Below are positions 44,278 to 59,269 of a DNA stretch of 64,000 bases, piece after piece. Location of the stretch: positions 1-64,000 of the forward strand of contig JAOZHU010000018.1 in the NCBI GenBank assembly GCA_026014705.1. The letters run 5' to 3'. This DNA is from Candidatus Bathyarchaeota archaeon (GTDB lineage Archaea; Thermoproteota; Bathyarchaeia; Bathyarchaeales; Bathycorpusculaceae). Both the position numbers and the translations under genes were made by a program. The stretch's first letter is position 1. Every line of letters begins with the position of its first letter. The notes below the pieces were generated by a model, which saw nothing but the letters and a program-made list of their open reading frames with translations, was not told where the DNA came from and did no database searches.

Positions 44278-44316
44278 TCATTCTACCGAGGTTCCTCAGA
44301 AATAGGTGACAAAGAG

Positions 44317-44325
44317 TTTTATAAA
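44317..44325 (+). promoter_or_regulatory. TATA box of the DNA methyltransferase gene
   Basis: TTTTATAAA is centred about 27 bp before ATG 44348, so the methyltransferase message should be leaderless from that ATG. The upstream GTG (44306) would lie before the promoter. Confidence 0.6.
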
Positions 44326-44347
44326 CTGGGCGCTAAAGAAGAAGTCG

Positions 44348-45457
44348 ATGAAAACTGTACACAAAATGCTTTTCAGCGATGCTCGCGAGATGAAAGAGCT
44401 CAGGGATAATTCTGTAGATTTGATGGTTACTTCGCCACCGTACCCGATGATTGAAATGTGGGACTCTATTTTCTCGAAGCAAAACCCAGCGATAGCAGAC
44501 GCGTTAGAAAACAATGAGGGGGATAGAGCCTTTGAATTAATGAATAAGGAGCTCGATAAAGTCTGGAAAGAAGTTTACCGAGTTTTGAAGGAAGGCGGAT
44601 TTGCTTGCATCAATATTGGCGATGCGACAAGGACTATTAGCAAAGAGTTTAGGCTGTATGCGAACCATTCAAGGATCTTGCAGTATTGTTTGAGTTTGGG
44701 TTTTAGTCCTCTCCCTGAAATATTGTGGAGAAAGCAGACAAACGCTCCCAACAAGTTTATGGGCTCTGGAATGCTGCCTGCGGGCGCCTATGTTACTTTG
44801 GAACACGAGTACATTTTGGTTCTAAGAAAAGGTAGCAAGCGTAAATTCATTAATGAAGATGAAAAAAGTCGTAGGCAAAAAAGCGCGTTTTTTTGGGAGG
44901 AACGAAATGTGTGGTTCTCAGATGTTTGGGAAGACTTGAAAGGAACCAGGCAAAATAACATTGATAAGACTATTCGTGAGAGAAGCGGAGCTTTCCCATT
45001 TGAGTTAGCGTATCGATTGATTAACATGTTTTCGCTCAAGGAAGATACTGTGCTAGACCCGTTTTTGGGGACTGGGACGACCACTATAGCTTCCATGGCA
45101 GCGGGCAGGAACAGCGTAGGAATCGAGATAGATCCAAAATTCAGGGCGCACATCTTCTCAAGGTCTAAGAGCATTGTTAATTTTGCTAATCAGCTAATAG
45201 AGAATAGAATAAAGAACCATGCGAGTTTCATTCGAGAGAGAATAAAAGCCAAGGGAAGATTGGGTTATGCTAACAGGTATTATGGGTTTCCAGTTATGAC
45301 GAGCCAAGAAACCGAAATAGTTTTTGACGAACTAAGCAGGATTATAGCGAAGGGCAATGATATTTTTGAAGTTGAATATAAGGAAAATCCGAGTTGGTTT
45401 TGGAAGGATGGCGAGATTGCGAGCAAGGACAAGGTGTCATTGACCGAGTGGACTTAA
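44348..45457 (+). CDS. Type II DNA methyltransferase (beta class), partner of a MjaI-like enzyme
   Basis: 369 residues. Catalytic motif IV is TSPPYP near the N-terminus and the SAM motif DPFLGTGTTTIASMAAGRNSVGIEID comes later, the beta-class order. SPPY indicates an amino-methyltransferase, N4-cytosine or N6-adenine. Next to a MjaI-family endonuclease, N4-cytosine methylation within CTAG is the likely function, by analogy with M.MjaI. It starts at ATG 44348 according to the TATA box. Its 3' end overlaps the convergent restriction gene by 21 bp. Confidence 0.9.
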   Translation: MKTVHKMLFSDAREMKELRDNSVDLMVTSPPYPMIEMWDSIFSKQNPAIADALENNEGDRAFELMNKELDKVWKEVYRVLKEGGFACINIGDATRTISKEFRLYANHSRILQYCLSLGFSPLPEILWRKQTNAPNKFMGSGMLPAGAYVTLEHEYILVLRKGSKRKFINEDEKSRRQKSAFFWEERNVWFSDVWEDLKGTRQNNIDKTIRERSGAFPFELAYRLINMFSLKEDTVLDPFLGTGTTTIASMAAGRNSVGIEIDPKFRAHIFSRSKSIVNFANQLIENRIKNHASFIRERIKAKGRLGYANRYYGFPVMTSQETEIVFDELSRIIAKGNDIFEVEYKENPSWFWKDGEIASKDKVSLTEWT

Positions 45458-46263
45458 TCCTTTTAGCCTTTTGATTTCCTCTGAAATCTCGTTAATTACT
45501 TCTGTGTTGTGAATTGCTTTTCCTTTGTCGGTTTTGACGGAAATTATGTAGAAGACTTTGCCGCCGTATTTTTCTGTGAATTTCTTGTGGGTTTCCTTCT
45601 GGAATTGGTATTCGTTGATGATTTGTGGTATGTATGCGAATCCAGCGGGCTTTATCTGCAGTCCTATGTATCTGTCGTTAATTTTTATGAAGAAATCGAC
45701 GTTGTAGAGGCGGTCCCACTCGTCTGGGGCAGGTTCAATCTTAACGCCCAAGATATTTTGTAGCTGCCCATAGATGGTTTGGATTTCAGATTGGTAGCCG
45801 TCGTAGGTTCTGTCAATTACCAGTTCAAGGACAAAGTTAATGCAGTCTTCCTCGGTTAATTCCTCGATTTCTGCTCTGCACACTTCGGTAACCTTAACGT
45901 ATAGTTTTCTTCCAATTTCTTCTAGTTGTTCTTTTGTGCGCACGTTGTTGAAGTAGTATTTTCTCCAGTCTTCCAATGATTTTGGTGCACATTTTCGTAT
46001 TTCTTCTGCTACGTGCCCGACGTGACGGGGTCTGTTTAACTGCCAGCGCATGTTTGCTTGATTAAGAATCCATTCCTTAGGCAACTTCTCTTCCTCATAG
46101 AGGAAACTACTACATCTTTTTTTTGTTGTACATTAAAATATGTTTTGTTCAAGATAGTGCTCAAGAATTTGGCAATAATTTGTTGGGGTGCTTTAGACTT
46201 TCGGAGTTTTCCGATCACCTCTTTTTCTTCGGTAGTCCAAAGAAAGATAAGTAACTTAGACAT
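45437..46263 (-). CDS. MjaI-family type II restriction endonuclease, with probable frameshift near its N-terminus
   Basis: The frame read from TTG 46084 gives 215 residues opening PKEWILNQANMRWQLNRPRHVG. It has a nuclease core VDFFIKINDRYIGLQIKPAG (Asp, then Q-x-K in place of E-x-K), as in the MjaI family, which cuts CTAG. Upstream, from ATG 46263 with AGGTG before it, a second frame encodes a SANT/Myb-like segment (FLWTTEEKEVIGKLRKSKAPQQ). The two join in frame if one base is added to the eight-T run 46117-46124, or by a -1 slip on the A-run of the message. Joined, the protein is about 275 residues and has no unnatural start. I therefore give both parts as one gene; the alternative is a separate small HTH gene, 46036-46263. 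Confidence 0.75.
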
Positions 46264-46571: not shown

Positions 46572-47753
46572 ATGAGTGAGCCCCCAAGAACAGACCTTGA
46601 TTTCCTCCCAGAAGCTTTAGTTGAAGAAATGCTTCGTAGTCAGAAGGAAATGATAGAACAAATTGAATGCGCAATGAAAGAAATGTCTACTACAAAGAAC
46701 AAGTTGCGAGATAAACTTTTAGAAATAGGTCGTTTGAAAAACGTCTCCGAGTTTGTTAAAGTTAAGAGCTACCCAACAACATGTGGGGTTGATGGTACTT
46801 ATTCCATAATTAAACAACTTTCGATTGACTCTGTAGCATTGGCTGCTTTTGCGGTTGAAGGCCTTATTCCGCCAAGAGAAAGCCGCTTTTGGGAAAAACC
46901 CCACCATTTGCTGAAAGTCTTTCCAGTGGTCCATTCGCCCAAGACTATCGATCTCTGTAGGCATCTAATGTTTTCTTTCGAACTGGAACTTGCTACCAAA
47001 GCACCGCATCGAGTTGTTTTTCTTGATGGGTCGCTCACTTCCCAACTAATCGCCTTAGGACAAGGTCTGGCTACACTTGATGAAGGTGAAATTGCGCCAC
47101 CCAAGGCTCTATCCGATTTAGTCGAGCAACGACTTGAAAAGTCATTAGAAGACTACCTTACTGTTCTGACCTCTCCAAGAGTTGACCGAATGTTTGTAGG
47201 AGTTCCAAAATATACGAGTCGCACCGAGATAATTAGTGAGCTTCTCAAAGGCGATCTTAATATGCCTATTCTTTCTCAGTGTGATGATAAAGGACTATTG
47301 TCGATCATACTTGAGCCTGGCGATGTAGTTGGGCCAATCGAACTTCAAAAACCCCAAGGCCCATGGCATATTAGTGGAATATCCAGCATAAGAAGGTCGC
47401 AATTCATTAAACTTAAAGATGATGTAGCTCGTGCCCTCGATGATTTGTATGTACTCTATTTCAAGCCAACAGAAATGCATCCGGCTCTCAGGATTGAAAT
47501 CAACGGGTCTGTTGTTGGAAATGAACGGAAACTGTCAATTCTACTAGAAGCGTTATTTGATCAAACTGCCATTCCTGGCGTATTCGAGCCTTATCCGCTT
47601 TACATTGCAGATATGTTTGTAAAGCACATTCATGGCGGTCTATCTGAACTTAGAGAAGCTGCACTTAGCGATCTTGGAAGAACAAAAGGAATTGACGTAT
47701 CAGATTTTTATCTCTCATTACATGACTATAGAACTGAGAGTGGTTTCGAATGA
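46572..47753 (+). CDS. nurA: NurA-family nuclease
   Basis: 393 residues. The NurA domain (RNase H-like fold) is marked by CGVDGTYSI (first Asp), VVFLDGSLTSQL (second Asp), FVGVPKYTSR and the C-terminal YPLYIADMFVKHI with its Asp. NurA is a 5'-3' exonuclease that works inside the hexameric HerA pump. The stop overlaps the herA ATG by 4 bp (ATGA), as expected of obligate partners. mre11 and rad50, the usual companions in chromosomal repair, are absent. With its setting among restriction and toxin genes, this looks like a defence-type nurA-herA pair. Confidence 0.87.
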   Translation: MSEPPRTDLDFLPEALVEEMLRSQKEMIEQIECAMKEMSTTKNKLRDKLLEIGRLKNVSEFVKVKSYPTTCGVDGTYSIIKQLSIDSVALAAFAVEGLIPPRESRFWEKPHHLLKVFPVVHSPKTIDLCRHLMFSFELELATKAPHRVVFLDGSLTSQLIALGQGLATLDEGEIAPPKALSDLVEQRLEKSLEDYLTVLTSPRVDRMFVGVPKYTSRTEIISELLKGDLNMPILSQCDDKGLLSIILEPGDVVGPIELQKPQGPWHISGISSIRRSQFIKLKDDVARALDDLYVLYFKPTEMHPALRIEINGSVVGNERKLSILLEALFDQTAIPGVFEPYPLYIADMFVKHIHGGLSELREAALSDLGRTKGIDVSDFYLSLHDYRTESGFE

Positions 47754-49461
47754 ATGAGTTGAGCGAGCGAGTTCAACAGAGTGAGTGGATTGGAACAATA
47801 AGTTCACCCTCAACAAATACTAGACTAAGTGTCGATATTTTGGAAGAAGCTTACGAGAAAGGATTGGTTGGCAACTTTTGCACTGTAGAGTTTGTTCAGA
47901 ATGGGCAGCCAGCCTACGCGATAGGGCAAATTGCATCTGTAACTAGGTTAAACCCTTATTTAGAGCGACATTCAGTGAGAAAAATTACCAGCATACGCGG
48001 AGAAGCGAATCCACTTACTGGCAAGCATGATGTCCAGACTGTTGAGCTAATAATAACTTCGGTTTTTGAATGGTAAAATGGCGCGGTAAAACCTGCCGTT
48101 ATTGGCACAGTTCCCCAGACAGGGACCCATGTTCATGCGTTGAATCAGGAGGTTGTAGATAAGCTAACCGAAAAATATGCAAAAGAAATAGTATATATTG
48201 GAAAAATGTACAACACGTCAATTCTTCTCCCAACAATGTTTAGACATTTTGGAAAAGGCCCGAGAGGACTCGGTGAAGCATACCATATTGGAATTTTTGG
48301 CAAAACAGGTTCGGGGAAATCATATTTAGCTCGCATGATAATACTTGCGTATGCACAACATCCTGAGATGTCCTTGCTCTTAATAGACCCAATGGGGGAA
48401 TATGCACGGGAAGCATCCAGCTTGGGTCCCATGAAGAAAATATTAGACCATATAGGGAAGCCCTTAGAAACCTATGGAATATCTACTATTTGCTTGGCTG
48501 AGTCTGAGTCCTTGCGAAGAATTCTTATGCAAACTAGATTTTTTCAAGAACTAGGTATTCCTTCGGAGGAGTATCAGATAAATGGAGCATTCCTTGTCAA
48601 ACAGTTCTTTGAAGCAAACAGAAATGGCGTTCAGACAGTAGCAGAAGGTATTGCCCCGTTAAACAGTAGAACCGCCTTCAATCAGCTACTAAATTATATC
48701 GGCAATAATGTTCAACGAATTTACGTATCACAAGAACCACGAAATCGAGTTTTAGATAGAATAGCCAATAATCGCGTAGTTTTGGAGAGAATATGGAATT
48801 CCGTAATTTCTTTGTTTGTACTTGAAAAAGGAAAGATACGATTGCAAGACTTGATCAATAAAGTTTGCACTACACCAAGCGTTTCCATACTGGATCTTTC
48901 GGAACCATCGACGGAAACATACTTTTGGAGTGATGAGGTTATGGCTATTGTATTAAGTGAAATTCTTGCAAGGCTCAGAGAAGTTGGTAATCAGTTCTAT
49001 CGTTCGGATAAGTTACTGAATTTGCTTACAATAACTGACGAAGCCCATCGTTTTGTACCTCGCGAAAGGCCTGTAGTTGAGGAGTTTTCCACTTTAAAGA
49101 AGGCTTTCATTGATGGAATCCGAGAAACTAGAAAATATGGTTTAGGCTGGTGTTTTGTCAGCCAGTCTATTGCTAGCTTGGATTTTGAGATACTTCGTCA
49201 AATGAGACTTTATTTTTTTGGTTATGGCCTAGCTTGGGGCGGTGAGCTTCGAGCACTAACAGACCTCGTTGGCAGAGGGGGCATCTTGATTTATATCAGA
49301 GTTTCAATGATCCTCAGACTTCGCTAGGGGACAAGAAATATTCATTCATGGCATATGGACCTGTTTCTCCATTATCTGCTTCAGGCGCACCATTATTCTT
49401 TGACGCACTTGATTACTTCAAGGAATTCGAAGCTAAGCTTATGCGAGATAAATTTCGCTGA
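47750..49461 (+). pseudogene. herA: HerA-family DNA translocase, interrupted by a stop and a frameshift
   Basis: An N-terminal HAS-barrel (47750-48073) is followed by an in-frame TAA (48074-48076). The same frame then continues without loss (NGAVKPAVIGTVPQTGTHV) into the ATPase with Walker A FGKTGSGKSYLARM, Walker B SLLLIDPMGEYA, and EAHRFVPRERP. At the five-G run 49277-49281 the frame shifts. With one G added it reads GRGGHLDLYQSFNDPQTS on to FKEFEAKLMRDKFR and TGA at 49459-49461, a natural HerA ending. So two separate lesions hit one gene, while nurA beside it is whole. Nonsense plus frameshift suggests true decay, unless both are sequence errors. Confidence 0.88.
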
Positions 49462-50852: not shown

Positions 50853-50865
50853 TTAAATATATTTT
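50853..50865 (+). promoter_or_regulatory. Promoter of the kinase-ATPase operon
   Basis: TTAAATATATTTT predicts a start near 50883, about ten bases before ATG 50893. No other promoter of similar quality is seen before the four genes that follow, consistent with one transcript from here to about 56.46 kb. Confidence 0.5.
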
Positions 50866-50892: not shown

Positions 50893-53436
50893 ATGGCTAC
50901 CTCATCGGAAAAAGAACTACTTCAACTTGATGAAACGACAAAAAACGAACTAATGTCCGGCAACCTCTGCAACACCTGCGTAAAAATTAGAGGGAAAGAA
51001 TACAACTTAGAGTCGGTTGCAGGTTCAGGCTTCAAGGGAGTTGTTTGGAAAGCTAAGGATGAATGGGAAACCCCGGTAGCAATCAAGTTTGCAATTGTAG
51101 AAGATTACCAAAATAAGTCCTTTTTGCAGGAAGTCAATTTAGCCAAAAAGCTACTTGGCTATCCTAGGTTCGCACAATCAATCGACGCTCAAGTTGTTGA
51201 ACTCCCTTTGCCTTCTGGTCCTAAAAAGCTTGTGTGCTTCGTGGAAGAGTGGATTGACGGATATACTCTTGATGTTTTTCTTGAGAAAGGACAATTCTCA
51301 TGTTCGTTTTTTCTACAATTTGTCAGAATGATGAGTGAGGCACTAAATAACTTATATTATTTGGGACTTTGTCACGACGACTTAAGAGCAAGCAACATCA
51401 AAATATCCCCTCCAAAACCGGGGTCGTTTGAACCTTATGAAACTGAAGTGAAGATAGTTGACACAGGTTCTCTAAAACGCGCTCCTTCTGTTAAAGAAAA
51501 AGATGATCATCACTGGTTTGTGCAACACATTGTAGACGTAAGAAACGCTATTTACAGAAAGAAAAGACTTTCAAAAATTGAAAAGAGTTACTTGGGGGCA
51601 ATAATTCCACTTATTGATAAGATGCTGGATGAGGACAGAGGGGTGGCGTTAATCGATCCCGCAAAAATCGTAGAGCTTTTCGAATTAACTTGGAAGGAAT
51701 GTGGTCGTTCAATTGAGGAACGCGAACAAAAGCTCAATGACCCGTTTTATTATATTTCAGCTGAAACAATTAGCAGCGATAAACTTCTTGTTGAGTTGTT
51801 TGCAGAATCATGTCCTTGGAAAACTGATGTGCTTAGCCCTGACCCAATAGTGCTCACTGGTCCTAGGGGTTGTGGCAAATCAACAATTTTCCGTCGCGTA
51901 AGCTTGAAAGGAATGTTATTCAAAGGCATTGACGAGATTAAGAACTCAAGCATAGCAGGTTTCTATATATCATGCACTACTGATTTGAGAAACCACATAA
52001 ATTGGATAAAGAGCGAAAATCTGGTCAGGCGATTCCGCGGTGATATTCTCCACTACTTCAATCTTTTGATTACAAGAGAAATTGTTGCTACATTCATTTC
52101 GGTGGCAAAACGTGAAGACAGAGAATCCCTATTTGGGTTTGGTCTTTCAGAAGAGAGGAAATTTTACAATTTTCTTGTTAACAAACTCATGATAACTGAA
52201 GCAGACCGCCTTCGTCTTCAAGGCGTCTCGCCTTTGGCTCACGCTTTGGACTTAATAGAGGGTGAACTAGAAAAATGTCACGAAACGATGGTGAGAGGGT
52301 TATCTGTCTCCAAGAGGACCCAACAATCATACATTTCTGAATTGACCAACTATCTAAATAAAAATATTCCCTACCTTCATGAAAGAAAAATCGTTTTCTT
52401 CATCGATGATCTCTCCACGCGTCAGATACCTAAGGAAGTCCAGACAGTTTTAAACGATGTAATTCATGAAAGAGCAAAAAACCACATTTTTAAAATATCT
52501 TCGGACAAATATGGATGGATAGGACTAGACTCTTTAGCTGCAGTAGGGGAAAAAACACGCGAATTCAAGGAAGTAGACTGTGGAAAATTCTATCTCGTTG
52601 ACGCAGACAAAAAAATTAAAGAACAATTTGCTAGGGAGCTTTTAGCAAAGCGCTTGACAATGTCAGGTTACAAGGGAACTCCTGAGGAAATTATAGGTAG
52701 GTCTTCATACATTGAAGGATCTTTGGGCAAAGCAATACGTGACAGAGCATATAAGAGAAATCGGGTTCATGATGTGTACTTTGGCTTAGAAACAATTACT
52801 GACCTTTGCTGCGGCGACATATCTGTTCTATTGGAAATTTATAGGCGAATTTTCAAGAAAGGTCAAGTACACGTAGACAGCCACTTACATGTGCCGCCTT
52901 ACATACAACATCAAGCAATCAAATCGACGTCGAGAGAGCTATATAATTACATTAAAAACTATCGTCCTTATGGTGAGGAAATGTTTGCTATAGTCACTCA
53001 CTTCGGGAGGCTTTCTAACAGGATTTTGAGAAAAGGAAGTTTAATACGTCAAAGAGACAAATTTGTTGTGCCCCAAACAACCAGAATTGAAGTTGATGAA
53101 GATCCAAGCCAGCCTCAGATAGCGTACACAGCACAACAAAAGGATATAATTGTAGAATTAGTTAAACGCGCGATTTTCATAGAATTGGATCCTGGTAGCG
53201 CGAGGCGTGGCTCAACTCCATCGCTTCGCTTGCAGTTGCGGCCAATACTTTGTCCAGCATTCATGACTACACCATTCAAGACGTTTCCTATTAAATGGAC
53301 ACCGGAAGATTTCAGATATTTCTTAATGGATCCCGAGCAGAAATGCCATATTGAATACAGAAAAATCAAGAAAGCGAAACCCGATGAGACTACTCCTAAA
53401 CTTCTTGATTTTAACACTGCTACAGGAGTGAACTGA
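50893..53436 (+). CDS. Protein kinase fused to P-loop ATPase, head of candidate defence operon
   Basis: 847 residues. Residues 38-270 are a Ser/Thr kinase-like domain: SVAGSGFKGVVWKA (glycine loop), Lys65 in VAIKF, catalytic loop HDDLRASN (161-168; HDD in place of HRD) and DTG (190-192) in place of DFG. Residues 285-660 are an ATPase with Walker A GPRGCGKST (323-331) and Walker B IVFFIDDLS (about 500-508), as in ORC/STAND-like or Sll1717-type P-loop proteins. The last 180 residues are winged-helix-like (FGRLSNRILRKGSLIRQRDKFV). A sensor-switch role for the operon is inferred from other kinase- or ATPase-headed immune systems. I do not recognise this exact fusion as a named system. Confidence 0.8.
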   Translation: MATSSEKELLQLDETTKNELMSGNLCNTCVKIRGKEYNLESVAGSGFKGVVWKAKDEWETPVAIKFAIVEDYQNKSFLQEVNLAKKLLGYPRFAQSIDAQVVELPLPSGPKKLVCFVEEWIDGYTLDVFLEKGQFSCSFFLQFVRMMSEALNNLYYLGLCHDDLRASNIKISPPKPGSFEPYETEVKIVDTGSLKRAPSVKEKDDHHWFVQHIVDVRNAIYRKKRLSKIEKSYLGAIIPLIDKMLDEDRGVALIDPAKIVELFELTWKECGRSIEEREQKLNDPFYYISAETISSDKLLVELFAESCPWKTDVLSPDPIVLTGPRGCGKSTIFRRVSLKGMLFKGIDEIKNSSIAGFYISCTTDLRNHINWIKSENLVRRFRGDILHYFNLLITREIVATFISVAKREDRESLFGFGLSEERKFYNFLVNKLMITEADRLRLQGVSPLAHALDLIEGELEKCHETMVRGLSVSKRTQQSYISELTNYLNKNIPYLHERKIVFFIDDLSTRQIPKEVQTVLNDVIHERAKNHIFKISSDKYGWIGLDSLAAVGEKTREFKEVDCGKFYLVDADKKIKEQFARELLAKRLTMSGYKGTPEEIIGRSSYIEGSLGKAIRDRAYKRNRVHDVYFGLETITDLCCGDISVLLEIYRRIFKKGQVHVDSHLHVPPYIQHQAIKSTSRELYNYIKNYRPYGEEMFAIVTHFGRLSNRILRKGSLIRQRDKFVVPQTTRIEVDEDPSQPQIAYTAQQKDIIVELVKRAIFIELDPGSARRGSTPSLRLQLRPILCPAFMTTPFKTFPIKWTPEDFRYFLMDPEQKCHIEYRKIKKAKPDETTPKLLDFNTATGVN

Positions 53437-53437
53437 G

Positions 53438-54550
53438 TTGATTTACGTACATGAAGTAGATCTAGCAGATATTATGCCTCAACTGCCCGAAATATCGAAA
53501 ATACAGATGGAAAGAGACTTCTCAAAGAACACATATGATGATCTCTTTCTTTGTGCTCTGGGTTTCGAGGACAGATGCCCTTGGATTCCACGCATGATTG
53601 CTGAAAAAAATGAATACAAATCTGATGAAGCGATTTATTTTGAATACTCTACTAATCCTGAAGATAACGAGATTAACAGGACCGAACTCTTACTTGCTCT
53701 GGGAAAGTTTGCAACGTTATCTCTACCCATGCAGTGCGACATTGACGACTTTACAACGATTTTTCGGCAAAAAATAATGACCGTCTGCAAGAAATGTGGC
53801 TGTCCAAAGATCACGTTCGACATTAGTGTCTGCTCTTCAAGGTTGCTGCTTCAGATTTTGAAAATACTTTTTGAGTTTGATGTCGAACTTCGCATCGTTT
53901 ATTCCGAAGCAGCCATATATCATCCAACTCCAGAGGAGGCAAAAAAAGGAAACTTGAACAATAATGAAGAAGTTCTGACCAAAGGAGTCAGTAATGTTTT
54001 TCCGAGTAGTGAGCATCCGGGTTACAACCTCGATTCACTTCCCGAAGCAATTGTCGCCTTTGCAACTTTCAACCCCAGAAGAACAAATGCAGTTATCGCT
54101 TATATCGACGAGAACCTACTCGGAAAATCATCGGAAAGACTGAATTGGATAATCGGGATTCCGCACGCTCAAGAGGATCAATGGCGAATCGGATTTGTTG
54201 AATCAGTAAACAAGATTCCCTCAAATTCTCAGATTTTTAGGGTATCAACCTTTGATTATAGAGATACGTTAAAACTACTGCATAAATTGTATAAGCAATA
54301 TTCTATGCAATATCACCTAAATATTTCACCCTTGGGCTCGAAAATGCAATCGATAGGTATTGCTTTGTTTCATTACATGAAACCCGAGGTTTCAATAATT
54401 TTTGCGCCGCCAATGAGGTACAACGCTAATAATTACTCGGAAATGTGCAAAGACACATGGATTATTAATTTCGGCAGTCTTGGAAAGATCAGAAATGTCC
54501 TTGACGAGGTAGGAATGGTTAAAATCAAAACAAAACAGTTACCGAAATAG
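53438..54550 (+). CDS. Rossmann/CARF-like protein of unknown function
   Basis: 370 residues, starting one base after the kinase-ATPase stop, so tightly coupled. Conserved-looking motifs are FLCALGFEDRCPW near residue 35, FDISVCSSRLLLQILKILF near 130, and YHLNISPLGSKMQSIGIALFHYM near 300. The last resembles the G-T/S-K-x-M turn of CARF-type Rossmann domains (as in Card1/Can2) that bind cyclic oligonucleotides. No nuclease or nucleotidyltransferase motif is visible. It could be the ligand sensor or a target of the kinase. The CARF comparison is my reading of a short motif and is weak. Confidence 0.5.
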   Translation: MIYVHEVDLADIMPQLPEISKIQMERDFSKNTYDDLFLCALGFEDRCPWIPRMIAEKNEYKSDEAIYFEYSTNPEDNEINRTELLLALGKFATLSLPMQCDIDDFTTIFRQKIMTVCKKCGCPKITFDISVCSSRLLLQILKILFEFDVELRIVYSEAAIYHPTPEEAKKGNLNNNEEVLTKGVSNVFPSSEHPGYNLDSLPEAIVAFATFNPRRTNAVIAYIDENLLGKSSERLNWIIGIPHAQEDQWRIGFVESVNKIPSNSQIFRVSTFDYRDTLKLLHKLYKQYSMQYHLNISPLGSKMQSIGIALFHYMKPEVSIIFAPPMRYNANNYSEMCKDTWIINFGSLGKIRNVLDEVGMVKIKTKQLPK

Positions 54551-54592
54551 CAACGGACAAATGTTATATTTCAGTGCTTGAGCATATGAAAT

Positions 54593-55711
54593 GTGACCTT
54601 CATGAGCGATTTCAGTCGAGTAGTAATGCTAACTTCAACTGAAGACCCTTATTTCAGAGATGCTTTAGATCTGATGTTTTATCCATCTGCCGTTGCCTAC
54701 AGATTTAGATACAACCGAAAATGGGTTTCAAAAGAATTTAAACGCGACAATGGGCAACTATCAAAGACCAAAATAGCTAACCTTGTTGGAAAGCGAGCAC
54801 TGATCGTTCATATTTTGACGGAAAAAAAGAATGGTAACTATGAGATACGTGAGTTTTTGCCACTAAGGGAGGCTCTCATAAATGAGGCCATTGTTGTAGG
54901 CGAGTTTCTCTGGCTAGGTTTTAAACTAGGCGATTGGGTTTTATACCGCAACGACATAAAAGAAAACGAACCAAACCAGTATCACAAAATTCTCAAAGCC
55001 GCTATCTGTCCTGATTCCATGGATATAGAAAACAGACTGGTAGTCCAAACTGAGATAATTGGGATTGAAACAATACCTGATAATGCTCAACTAGAAAATA
55101 CTGAAACATTGAGTAATTGGACTCGAATCGCTAAAGGCATAAGTCGCTTCTCAAAAGTCCGTCGAGATTCTAGCAAGAATGTTGTATTTATGAAATTCGT
55201 TAGAATAAGAGATGCAACAACTAATGAGATTCTGAACGTGAAAGCGATAGACCCAGGTAAACAAGGTTTTGAGCTTAAATCAGAACGCTCGTATGCTATT
55301 GACATTGTTGAGTATACTGACCAAAAAACTGAGCCTTTTGAACTCGAATTGCAGGCAGAAGAGGAAGTAGTCTCGCCGACTATTTCTAAAACGGAAATTC
55401 GAGGAAAATATGACGTTCTACATTTTCTAGTTTTTTGCAAGCCTGTAAACAGGGATAGCGTTTCGACACTTTCATTTGAACCTAAGACTGAAAATTATGC
55501 AATAAGCAGGGCATTCTTCTGGATAAAAATCAAGACGAGAAAATGGGTCTATGTTGGGATTCCCTTATTCTTTTTTGCTATTTCAACTATTTTTACAAGC
55601 GAACAATTCTTCAGACTAATATCAAATCAAGCTATTGACATAGGCGCTTTAGTTTTTGGTTCAGTCGGCACTGTATTTTCAACAATTAGCTTATTCTATT
55701 TGAGGAAATAA
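54593..55711 (+). CDS. Membrane protein with C-terminal helix pair, candidate effector
   Basis: 372 residues from GTG 54593 (ATG 54602 is equally possible). The first 310 residues are soluble and mixed alpha/beta (SSKNVVFMKFVRIRDATTNE, KSERSYAIDIVEYTDQ). Two membrane helices follow at about 317-334 and 346-369 (WVYVGIPLFFFAISTIF and IGALVFGSVGTVFSTISLFY). A large soluble part ending in a short hairpin membrane segment is the layout of several membrane-disrupting immune effectors; for this gene that is inference. I find no known domain. It lies 42 bp after the preceding gene and 13 bp before the ASCH gene. Confidence 0.55.
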   Translation: MTFMSDFSRVVMLTSTEDPYFRDALDLMFYPSAVAYRFRYNRKWVSKEFKRDNGQLSKTKIANLVGKRALIVHILTEKKNGNYEIREFLPLREALINEAIVVGEFLWLGFKLGDWVLYRNDIKENEPNQYHKILKAAICPDSMDIENRLVVQTEIIGIETIPDNAQLENTETLSNWTRIAKGISRFSKVRRDSSKNVVFMKFVRIRDATTNEILNVKAIDPGKQGFELKSERSYAIDIVEYTDQKTEPFELELQAEEEVVSPTISKTEIRGKYDVLHFLVFCKPVNRDSVSTLSFEPKTENYAISRAFFWIKIKTRKWVYVGIPLFFFAISTIFTSEQFFRLISNQAIDIGALVFGSVGTVFSTISLFYLRK

Positions 55712-55724
55712 GGAGAATAACGCA

Positions 55725-56069
55725 ATGAAAACTCTAAATTTCTTCCCCTATTATGAAGCGCTTTTAAGGAAGAGAAATAAATGCACCACAATTCGTTTAG
55801 GTGACCAAAGAAGCAAATACGCTGCTGGTGATAGAGCTATAATTACAATTGGCTGGACTGAAAATGAAGCAAACCTAAGATTACAACAAATAGAGATTGC
55901 AGAAGTTTGCTTCAAAAGAATAAGAGATATCACGATTGAGGACTTGAATGGAGAAAGCCCTGACTGCACGCAAAAAGAGGCTGTACCTTTTGTTCTGTCA
56001 GCAATATATCGTAAGACCGTCTCTGCTGAGGATTACGTCACAATTATAAAATGGAAATACATTAATTAA
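55725..56069 (+). CDS. ASCH-domain protein
   Basis: 114 residues. The ASCH fold (related to PUA) is suggested by LNFFPYYEALLRKRNKCTTIRLGDQRSKYAAGDRAIITIG at the start, and a helix-strand ending with EDYVTIIKWKYI. ASCH proteins bind RNA or modified nucleosides, and some cleave acylated nucleosides or act as RNases. It is the fourth gene of the operon. The stop (TAA) is followed at once by an in-frame ORF. Confidence 0.7.
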   Translation: MKTLNFFPYYEALLRKRNKCTTIRLGDQRSKYAAGDRAIITIGWTENEANLRLQQIEIAEVCFKRIRDITIEDLNGESPDCTQKEAVPFVLSAIYRKTVSAEDYVTIIKWKYIN

Positions 56070-56073
56070 ATCA

Positions 56074-56459
56074 ATGGTCGAAAAATAAGCCGAGGCGAGA
56101 ATATTCCTCCAAAAGTTGATAGAATTATTGACTGCAACTATTACATCGAGCTCGATGAAAAAATTGTATTAAAGCTTCCATATTTTGGACCTCTTGGCAG
56201 AAGAATTTACGTACGATGGCAGCAAGATGGAGTCACCTTGACAAAAGAGTTGTTTGTCCAAAGAACTGATGCCTTCACCACGGATCTCATAGACCTATTG
56301 AACAGTTTAAAGAAGGGGGAAATTTTCGAAATAATGTATTCTTGCGGATTCGACGGTTTTATAAGAATATTCTTGGATGAACACGGAAAATTTCTGGGCG
56401 AATTTTCAAGCAAATCTGAAAAATCTTTGCAGGAAGTAAAGAGCAAACTCGGAATATAA
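56074..56459 (+). CDS. Fifth operon gene, probably frameshifted at its start
   Basis: ATG 56074 reads MVEK and stops. If one A is added to the five-A run 56081-56085 it continues MVEKISRGENIPPKVDRIID and on to TAA near 56459, giving about 129 residues: YYIELDEKIVLKLPYFGPLG, then LFVQRTDAFTTDLIDLL and DGFIRIFLDEHGKFLG. Without the added base, only the last 73 residues have a start (TTG 56238), yet the upstream coding looks just as natural. The family is unknown to me. The gene ends the operon before a 17-bp inverted repeat. Confidence 0.5.
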
Positions 56460-58003: not shown

Positions 58004-59269
58004 GTGAACGAACCTACATCCGAATCTTTATCTGATTTAGGCGTGTTTGAAAGCGAAGCTAATACTACAAACAGCGAGCCAAAATACGATAGAGTTAACC
58101 GCACGTGTCCACACTGTAAATCCAGAAAGCTCTGGCGAAACGGCTACCGGTTCACTCCTTTCAATGACAAAATTCAACGCTGGCTATGCTGTAACTGTGG
58201 GCGGCGTTTTTCAGACCCTCAAGACGTTGAAAGGGCATGGAGCACGCTTGAACGCATTGAAAGAATTCAATCGAAGTCAATAAAAAGCAGAGACGACAAA
58301 GATAATATTCGCCAAATATGCGTCACGGAGACGAAAAACTTGGCAGCGGAACAAAACCAGCAAACAATAGAAGTTCCGCGAAAAACCGACCTGAAAAGCG
58401 CAATCGTAAACTTCCTCTGGCACTGCAAGAAACGCAACTACTCTCCCGACACCATCAGAGCATACGGCTTCAGCCTACAACAACTCGTGAAGCTCGGCGT
58501 GGACCTATACAACCCCGAAACCTTCATGGAAATCCTGGCACAGCAAACACAGCTGTCGCAAACCCACAAATACAGCCTCCGCAAAGCCTACACCAGCTTC
58601 CTCAACGCAAACAAAATCGAAGCAGAACTGCCCACCTACAGAATCACGCGCCCCCTGCCTTACATACCTCCTGAAGAATACCTCGACCAACTAATAGCCA
58701 GCAGCAGCGTACAAATGGCAGCCTTCCTAGAAACGCTAAAGCAGACTGGAGCCAGACCTGGCGAAGTGTGGCGACTCAAATGGACCGATATAGATATAGA
58801 AGGCAAGAAAGTCCACATCAGCCAACCTGAAAAAGGGTGCAACGCAAGAATACGCCCCATCGACGCCAAACTGCTAAACATGTTGCTCGCGTTGCCACGA
58901 AAACAGGAACGCATCTTCACCTACGGATCCCGAGACTTAGCCTGGAAAACCTTCGCACGGATGCGGCAAAGAGCAATACACAAACTCGGCAACCCAGAGC
59001 TGCGCAAGATCGACTTCTACACCTTCCGCTACTGGCGAGCAACCATGGAATACCGAAGATTACATGACTTCGGTGCCGTCATGATACTGCTCGGACACAA
59101 ATCGCTAAAATATGTCCTGTTATACGCGCAGCTAAGCGACGCCTACGCGCATGGCGGATACGTATGCAGAGAAGCAAGGACAACCGCGGAAGCAAGACAA
59201 CTCATCGAAGACGGATTCGAGTACGTAATGGATAAGGAGGGCGTTAGCCTTTTCAGGAAGCTTAAGTAG
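58004..59269 (+). CDS. Tyrosine recombinase with zinc ribbon, paralogue of the first
   Basis: 421 residues. A zinc ribbon (CPHCKSRKLWRNGYRF, then WLCCNCGRRFSDP) follows about 30 extra N-terminal residues; then a helical DNA-binding domain and the catalytic domain with TGARPGEVWRLKW (first Arg), YTFRYWRAT (Tyr in place of the usual His before the second Arg), LLGHKSLKYVLLYAQL (His and candidate Tyr). The ending DGFEYVMDKEGVSLFRKLK matches that of the recombinase at 1533-2678. It starts at GTG 58004. The second half is much more GC-rich than the island before it. The two paralogues face opposite ways 55 kb apart. Confidence 0.87.
   Translation: MNEPTSESLSDLGVFESEANTTNSEPKYDRVNRTCPHCKSRKLWRNGYRFTPFNDKIQRWLCCNCGRRFSDPQDVERAWSTLERIERIQSKSIKSRDDKDNIRQICVTETKNLAAEQNQQTIEVPRKTDLKSAIVNFLWHCKKRNYSPDTIRAYGFSLQQLVKLGVDLYNPETFMEILAQQTQLSQTHKYSLRKAYTSFLNANKIEAELPTYRITRPLPYIPPEEYLDQLIASSSVQMAAFLETLKQTGARPGEVWRLKWTDIDIEGKKVHISQPEKGCNARIRPIDAKLLNMLLALPRKQERIFTYGSRDLAWKTFARMRQRAIHKLGNPELRKIDFYTFRYWRATMEYRRLHDFGAVMILLGHKSLKYVLLYAQLSDAYAHGGYVCREARTTAEARQLIEDGFEYVMDKEGVSLFRKLK

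Follow-up and report, generated by a model that had tools for sequence, protein, structure and literature searches.

A 64,000-nucleotide stretch of the genome of a Candidatus Bathyarchaeota archaeon (contig JAOZHU010000018.1, positions 1 to 64,000, hereafter the window) carries a pair of genes encoding a Ser/Thr-type kinase fused to an ORC/CDC6-like AAA+ ATPase (gene 1, positions 50893-53436, plus strand, 847 amino acids (aa)) and a CARF6 protein (gene 2, 53438-54550, plus strand, 370 aa, with a TTG start 1 base pair (bp) past gene 1). Divergent from gene 1 and upstream of it lies the gene for DruA (DUF4338/PF14236; 49519-50697, minus strand, 392 aa), with 195 bp between the DruA start and gene 1. 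We interpret the locus as the DruA-type member of a modular defence switch that has an interchangeable DNA-facing partner, DruA replacing the methyltransferase, and assign this reading a probability of about one half. The composition of the gene set is well supported, and we infer a defence function of the module from its neighbourhood and family context, while the direction of signalling and the DruA substrate proposed below are hypothetical.

The kinase-ATPase and CARF6 genes

Gene 1 matched Pkinase (E = 3.8e-10) over about residues 37-200, where the motifs HDDLRASN and VDTG are found, and the ORC-CDC6-like family PF24389 (E = 1.2e-37) over about residues 284-606. The kinase residues K65, H161, D163, N168 and D190 are retained in 73-75 of 75 family members and the Walker B Asp-Asp in 74 of 74, and the kinase looks active in its sequence. 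Conservation of the Walker A motif does not constitute independent evidence, because the survey described below was seeded with it. Gene 2 matched the PADLOC CARF6 profile PDLC01917 (E = 7e-21), and its invariant residues comprise GFExR, Y155, Y161 and GSK, with GSKMQ among the invariant or near-invariant positions; a sequence-profile search of the PDB with gene 2 matched no chain. The assignment of gene 2 as a CARF-type protein is supported, and we propose that it senses a nucleotide-like ligand. The PADLOC profile PDLC01925 (CARF6--CARF_STK_AAA) was matched consecutively by both proteins, with gene 1 aligning to positions 42-715 (E = 3.1e-24) and gene 2 to positions 872-1182 (E = 1.3e-10), which identifies the two genes as a split form of the fused CARF-kinase-AAA protein. 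As split forms make up the majority among the relatives, we file genes 1 and 2 as a variant and not as the fused form.

Relatives were collected by an alignment-based scan of genome contigs, seeded with a Walker-A pattern, from which the best 80 loci, covering more than 20 phyla, were taken; loci from other searches were added and duplicates removed, giving 84 distinct loci. A single-sequence scan of genome and viral contigs with gene 1 returned no relatives, whereas the alignment-based scan did find them. Apart from loci truncated at a contig end, CARF6 is always encoded immediately downstream of the ATPase, no more than tens of bp away, or as one protein with it; the adjacency in locus L013 was read by eye, outside the main adjacency listing, and the gap of 248 bp in L039 hinges on the start codon chosen. 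The association survives both fission and fusion, as the kinase, the ATPase and CARF6 are three consecutive genes in Bradyrhizobium and reside in a single 1206-aa protein, scoring 1752 bits to PDLC01925, in Loktanella. A previous reading of the window made from its letters (the sequence-only reading) had described gene 1 as a kinase-like domain with HDD and DTG motifs fused to a P-loop ATPase and gene 2 as a Rossmann protein with a CARF-like GSKMQ turn, the two acting as a functional pair; the profile matches bear out both descriptions, and the conserved adjacency or fusion agrees with the pairing.

At L012:844-9582, from an archaeon of the same family, a TIR domain occupies the place of the kinase, in a row of genes for a phosphoesterase, an HSP90-like ATPase, a TIR-ORC/CDC6 ATPase, CARF6 and a DNA methylase. 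ATPase-CARF6 pairs without a kinase, accompanied by a C5 methyltransferase and HD-CE or PRTase-CE proteins, were observed at L013:894-5855 and L020:5206-10156, which suggests more effector swaps.

DruA and DNA methyltransferases as partners of the core

The partner types were found by clustering the genes that neighbour the core in the 84 loci. An N4/N6-type DNA methyltransferase is present in 37 loci, with the catalytic SPPY in 37/37, and lies upstream of the core on the same strand in 36 of these, at a median gap of 1 bp. A C5 methyltransferase occurs in 15 loci and a thymidine-phosphorylase-like gene in 14, both being present in 9, so that 20/84 loci belong to this type, sometimes accompanied by Vsr. 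DruA is the partner in 17/84 loci, the window included, and is found together with either methyltransferase type or with the phosphorylase-like gene in none of the 84. The listed partners are all absent from 10 loci, several of which are cut by contig ends.

On the tree of core proteins the partner type changes 3 times when unassigned rows are left out and 9 times when they are included, compared with a mean of 36 after shuffling, and the pairwise distances between DruA proteins correlate with those between cores (Mantel r 0.68, p 0.0001). These sequence comparisons support long-term co-inheritance of partner type and core. The phosphorylase-like gene (thymidine/pyrimidine-nucleoside) lies upstream of the kinase-AAA(-CARF6) gene in its 14 loci, all among L077-L099 (e.g. 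L078:5827-7038), and overlaps the start of that gene in many of them.

The DruA protein of the window matched PF14236 (E = 1.9e-58) and the PADLOC DruA profile (E = 8e-70); it is the sole DruA in the host genome, and 1 of 101 searched genomes carries a DruA. The other 16 DruA-core loci come from seven bacterial phyla (Planctomycetota, Gemmatimonadota, Bacteroidota, Actinomycetota, Spirochaetota, Pseudomonadota and Thermodesulfobacteriota), and in 12 of the 17 DruA loci the gene lies less than 100 bp from the core or overlaps it. The sequence-only reading had listed the DUF4338 gene as a mere neighbour; its presence next to the core in 16 more loci places it in the gene set and not among the bystanders.

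The C-terminal half of DruA was judged GNAT-like from its sequence ahead of the fold search, and DUF4338 is annotated as a GNAT domain in PMC10853773. An AlphaFold (AF2) model of DruA reached a predicted local distance difference test (pLDDT) score of 84 and a predicted TM-score (pTM) of 0.80, and nearly all PDB matches listed for the model are acetyltransferases, each weak alone; a sequence search of the PDB with DruA gave nothing useful. The fold of DruA is thus predicted to be GNAT-like. A GNAT fold is able to modify DNA, an example being Mom of phage Mu. Considering that such a fold can modify DNA and that DruA replaces methyltransferases, DNA modification by DruA is suggested, and by analogy it would fit the observed exchange of partners. 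In a more specific form of this idea, DruA would be a GNAT-type DNA modifier in a system that resembles restriction-modification (R-M), with the CARF6-gated kinase-AAA+ switch as the restricting arm and with DruA and the methyltransferases as interchangeable markers; we put this form forward tentatively, with more doubt than confidence. To our knowledge, no job has been assigned to DruA since the Druantia report.

Signal and nucleotide context

In the host genome, which is 96% complete, neither Cas10 nor CD-NTase scored above its curated cut-off: Cmr2 had no match, Csm1 reached 17.1 bits against a cut-off of 170, and SMODS reached 17.4 against 26.5. On this basis, the CARF6 ligand is probably something other than a cyclic oligoadenylate made by Cas10. 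An identity as a type III CRISPR accessory was rejected, since no Cas10 reached the cut-off in this genome. Thymidylate synthases of two unrelated kinds are found beside the core, overlapping it in some loci: ThyX adjoins it in seven (L010, L025, L029, L039, L050, L072 and L074) and an enzyme that is ThyA-like by sequence in two (L049 and L065). Together with the phosphorylase-like gene, these enzymes provide a lead towards a pyrimidine-nucleotide link.

Genes 3, 4 and 5 and the surroundings of the locus

Genes 1-4 all lie on the same strand, with spacings of 1, 42 and 13 bp. Gene 3 (54593-55711, plus strand, 372 aa; alternative ATG start at 54602) encodes a beta-rich protein with two hydrophobic C-terminal membrane helices at about residues 318-336 and 347-365. 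It is present in 6/84 loci, the window included, and its homologues in the survey are confined to the DruA-type loci L021, L024, L025, L033 and L059. In a relative of the host, a membrane domain of the gene 3 type shares one protein with a radical SAM enzyme (L113:6202-8976), so that gene 3 is a mobile module, probably a membrane anchor or sensor, and an optional part of the set; a distinct ASCH gene adjoins this gene 3 relative in convergent orientation. Searches with gene 3 found no relatives in viral contigs (single-sequence scan) and none among plasmids, and a sequence search of the PDB gave nothing useful. Fold-search matches of gene 3 to beta-sandwiches of the RhoGDI/PapD/MSP type were set aside owing to the low confidence of the model, and the downstream proteins of L026 and L028, which also end in two membrane helices, were unconvincing as homologues at 14-17% identity.

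Gene 4 (55725-56069, plus strand, 114 aa) encodes a small ASCH-like protein, and gene 5 (56238-56459, plus strand) is a doubtful small open reading frame (ORF) with no family match. Neither has a homologue in the other core loci, and gene 4 is probably not a core part. The frame of gene 5 is open over 56070-56459 with no start codon before the TTG at 56238, 168 bp after gene 4, and the ATG at 56074, 4 bp past gene 4, sits in a different frame; gene 5 may therefore be spurious or frameshifted. An archaeal-type TATA-like box read from the sequence (TTAAATATA, about 50853-50861, plus strand) lies ~30 bp ahead of the ATG of gene 1, and an Rfam search of the window found no RNA.

The sequence-only reading had proposed a run of five genes in one direction behind a TATA box, acting as one unit. 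The box, the first four ORFs with their spacings and the two membrane helices that end gene 3 were found as described, whereas the fifth ORF with its gap of about 4 bp was not; the ASCH call for gene 4 corresponds to a match to PF04266 that falls below the cut-off (20.6 versus 21.2 bits). The gene set that recurs in the survey comprises genes 1 and 2, together with DruA and the optional gene 3, and leaves out genes 4 and 5, which speaks against a single five-gene unit. The executing role that the sequence-only reading had tentatively given to the membrane or ASCH protein draws, for ASCH, no support from recurrence.

The neighbouring defence genes named in that reading were all matched: an AbiEii-like gene, an MjaI-type restriction enzyme with an N6/N4 methylase, NurA-like and HerA-like genes, and DruA/DUF4338. 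The N6/N4 DNA methylase is convergent with the MjaI-type restriction endonuclease (44306-46084), the two constituting a type II R-M pair. The NurA-like gene, a small ORF and the HerA-like gene follow in one direction at 46572-49327, where the HerA-like ORF is just 395 aa long and possibly truncated. The ORFs at 1533-2678 and 58004-59269, the latter a tyrosine recombinase, are alike in their N-terminal Zn-ribbon-like sequence and possibly delimit a mobile island.

Proposed mechanism and alternative explanations

In the mechanism that we propose, the module would have three parts: a switch protein, in which a Ser/Thr kinase is joined to an ORC/CDC6-like AAA+ ATPase; a CARF6 protein, which would sense a nucleotide-like ligand; and a DNA-facing enzyme, which would tell self from non-self and is a methyltransferase in most relatives and DruA here. 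DruA would modify or read DNA at host sites, and the AAA+ part would assemble on DNA or together with DruA. Detection, by way of CARF6, of foreign DNA or of a nucleotide arising from infection would lead the AAA+ part to turn the kinase on, and the activated kinase would phosphorylate cell targets and thereby stop the infection. Gene 3 would be an optional membrane-anchored part with a membrane-acting or docking role. We infer DNA as the substrate of DruA, the order of events and the role of gene 3.

Several points weigh against this reading. The survey counts describe the nearest relatives, because the scan was seeded with Walker A and the best 80 loci were taken. Partner changes on the tree are few, so that the exclusivity of the partners could in part be due to shared descent. 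The Foldseek matches of DruA are individually weak, with a best E of 0.0097 and low TM-scores, and the structure model of gene 3 is of low confidence (pLDDT 57). We know of no phage-defence experiment on any member. Finally, PMC10853773 treats DUF4338 as a candidate protein-modifying co-effector and not as a DNA modifier.

Following PMC10853773, in which DUF4338 is read as a GNAT co-effector possibly directed at proteins, DruA could be the effector itself, its GNAT domain acylating host proteins and halting growth once the core has been triggered, and DruA and the methyltransferases would share a location for different reasons. In line with this, DruA is found upstream or downstream of the core and on either strand, in contrast to the N4/N6 methyltransferases, which are almost always upstream, and owing to this variable placement the expression of DruA may be uncoupled from that of the core. 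However, effectors of this kind tend to be variable additions, while DruA takes the place of the methyltransferases with 0/84 overlap, and no recurring alternative effector stands in its place in the methyltransferase loci. We regard an effector role of DruA as possible but doubtful.

The kinase-AAA-CARF6 proteins could instead form a regulatory module that senses a nucleotide and controls nearby defence genes, R-M genes among them, through their expression or activity. CARF domains are often ligand-sensing regulators (PMC4012209), and several loci have R-M genes directly beside the core; the conserved neighbour, however, is a partner enzyme at a median spacing of 1 bp and not a mixed assortment of targets, and Vsr, in 6 loci, is the one nuclease that recurs, which makes regulation of this kind rather unlikely. 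A variant of Druantia, in which DruA acts as in Druantia type I and the DruE helicase is replaced by the kinase-AAA-CARF6 core, draws on the homology of the window DruA to a DruA beside a DruE-type helicase on three plasmids, of Nitrosococcus, Pseudomonas and Meiothermus. DruE had no match in any of the 17 DruA loci, and neither a DruE-sized ORF nor a match was found in the window; across the survey, DruE was matched strongly in L032 alone, with no DruA in the L032 DNA examined, and the other Druantia-type proteins encoded nearby on the Nitrosococcus and Pseudomonas plasmids do not recur either. This variant is accordingly judged improbable, and canonical Druantia was ruled out by the lack of DruE. 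Unrelated genes sharing a defence island by chance is the default explanation for genes 4 and 5, which do not recur with the core, but for the set as a whole it is highly improbable, being contradicted by the adjacency or fusion of genes 1 and 2 in all uncut loci and by the recurrence of DruA, along with gene 3, across phyla.

Comparison with known defence systems

The sequence-only reading had taken the locus as a candidate undescribed system. In the profile libraries and literature searched, no named defence system has the gene set of the window; its core, on the other hand, is not undescribed, because the kinase-AAA-CARF architecture has already been reported (PMC4012209) and modelled (PDLC01925). 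Neither the DruA variant nor the partner swap was found described in the literature searched, and as the 2020 CARF classification lies outside that literature, priority for the DruA variant is not certain.

The closest comparison is with the CARF6 CARF_STK_AAA protein, for which Makarova et al. 2014 (PMC4012209) described the fused order Zn ribbon, kinase, AAA+ domain with an Arg in its P-loop, CARF and winged helix-turn-helix (wHTH) domain. The window pair has the same domains in the same order and the same P-loop Arg, in gene 1 (GPRGCGKS), but it is split into two genes, shows no CxxC..CxxC Zn ribbon at the start of gene 1, and is accompanied by DruA, where that family has a C5 methyltransferase, a thymidine-phosphorylase-like gene or both. 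With Druantia type I the window has a DruA homologue in common, but DruA accompanies the kinase-AAA-CARF6 core in place of DruE.

BREX type 2 comprises the PglW kinase with an ORC/CDC6-like domain and the PglX methyltransferase (PMC12839542), and thus resembles the window set, which likewise joins a DNA-modifying enzyme, putatively DruA, to a kinase and an ORC/CDC6-like ATPase domain and shows no evident nuclease. The window set differs in having a CARF6 sensor and intact Walker motifs in its ATPase, compared with the degenerate domain reported for PglW (PMC12839542), and no BREX profile is among the PADLOC matches of nine window proteins, PglZ not having been searched elsewhere in the genome. 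The methylation-associated defence system MADS likewise ties a kinase and an ATPase to DNA methylation, and weak profile matches to MAD6 (E = 4e-10) and MAD8 (E = 0.001) were obtained, but these are confined to the kinase and P-loop regions, and the MAD6 equivalog scored 21 bits against a cut-off of 460.

The exchange of DruA for a methyltransferase beside a fixed core provides a concrete, testable idea of the job of DruA. Beyond the window, the survey suggests that methyltransferase-kinase-CARF6 operons form a large family in which no nuclease is evident; nucleotide-sensor immunity would then reach further than CRISPR and CBASS.

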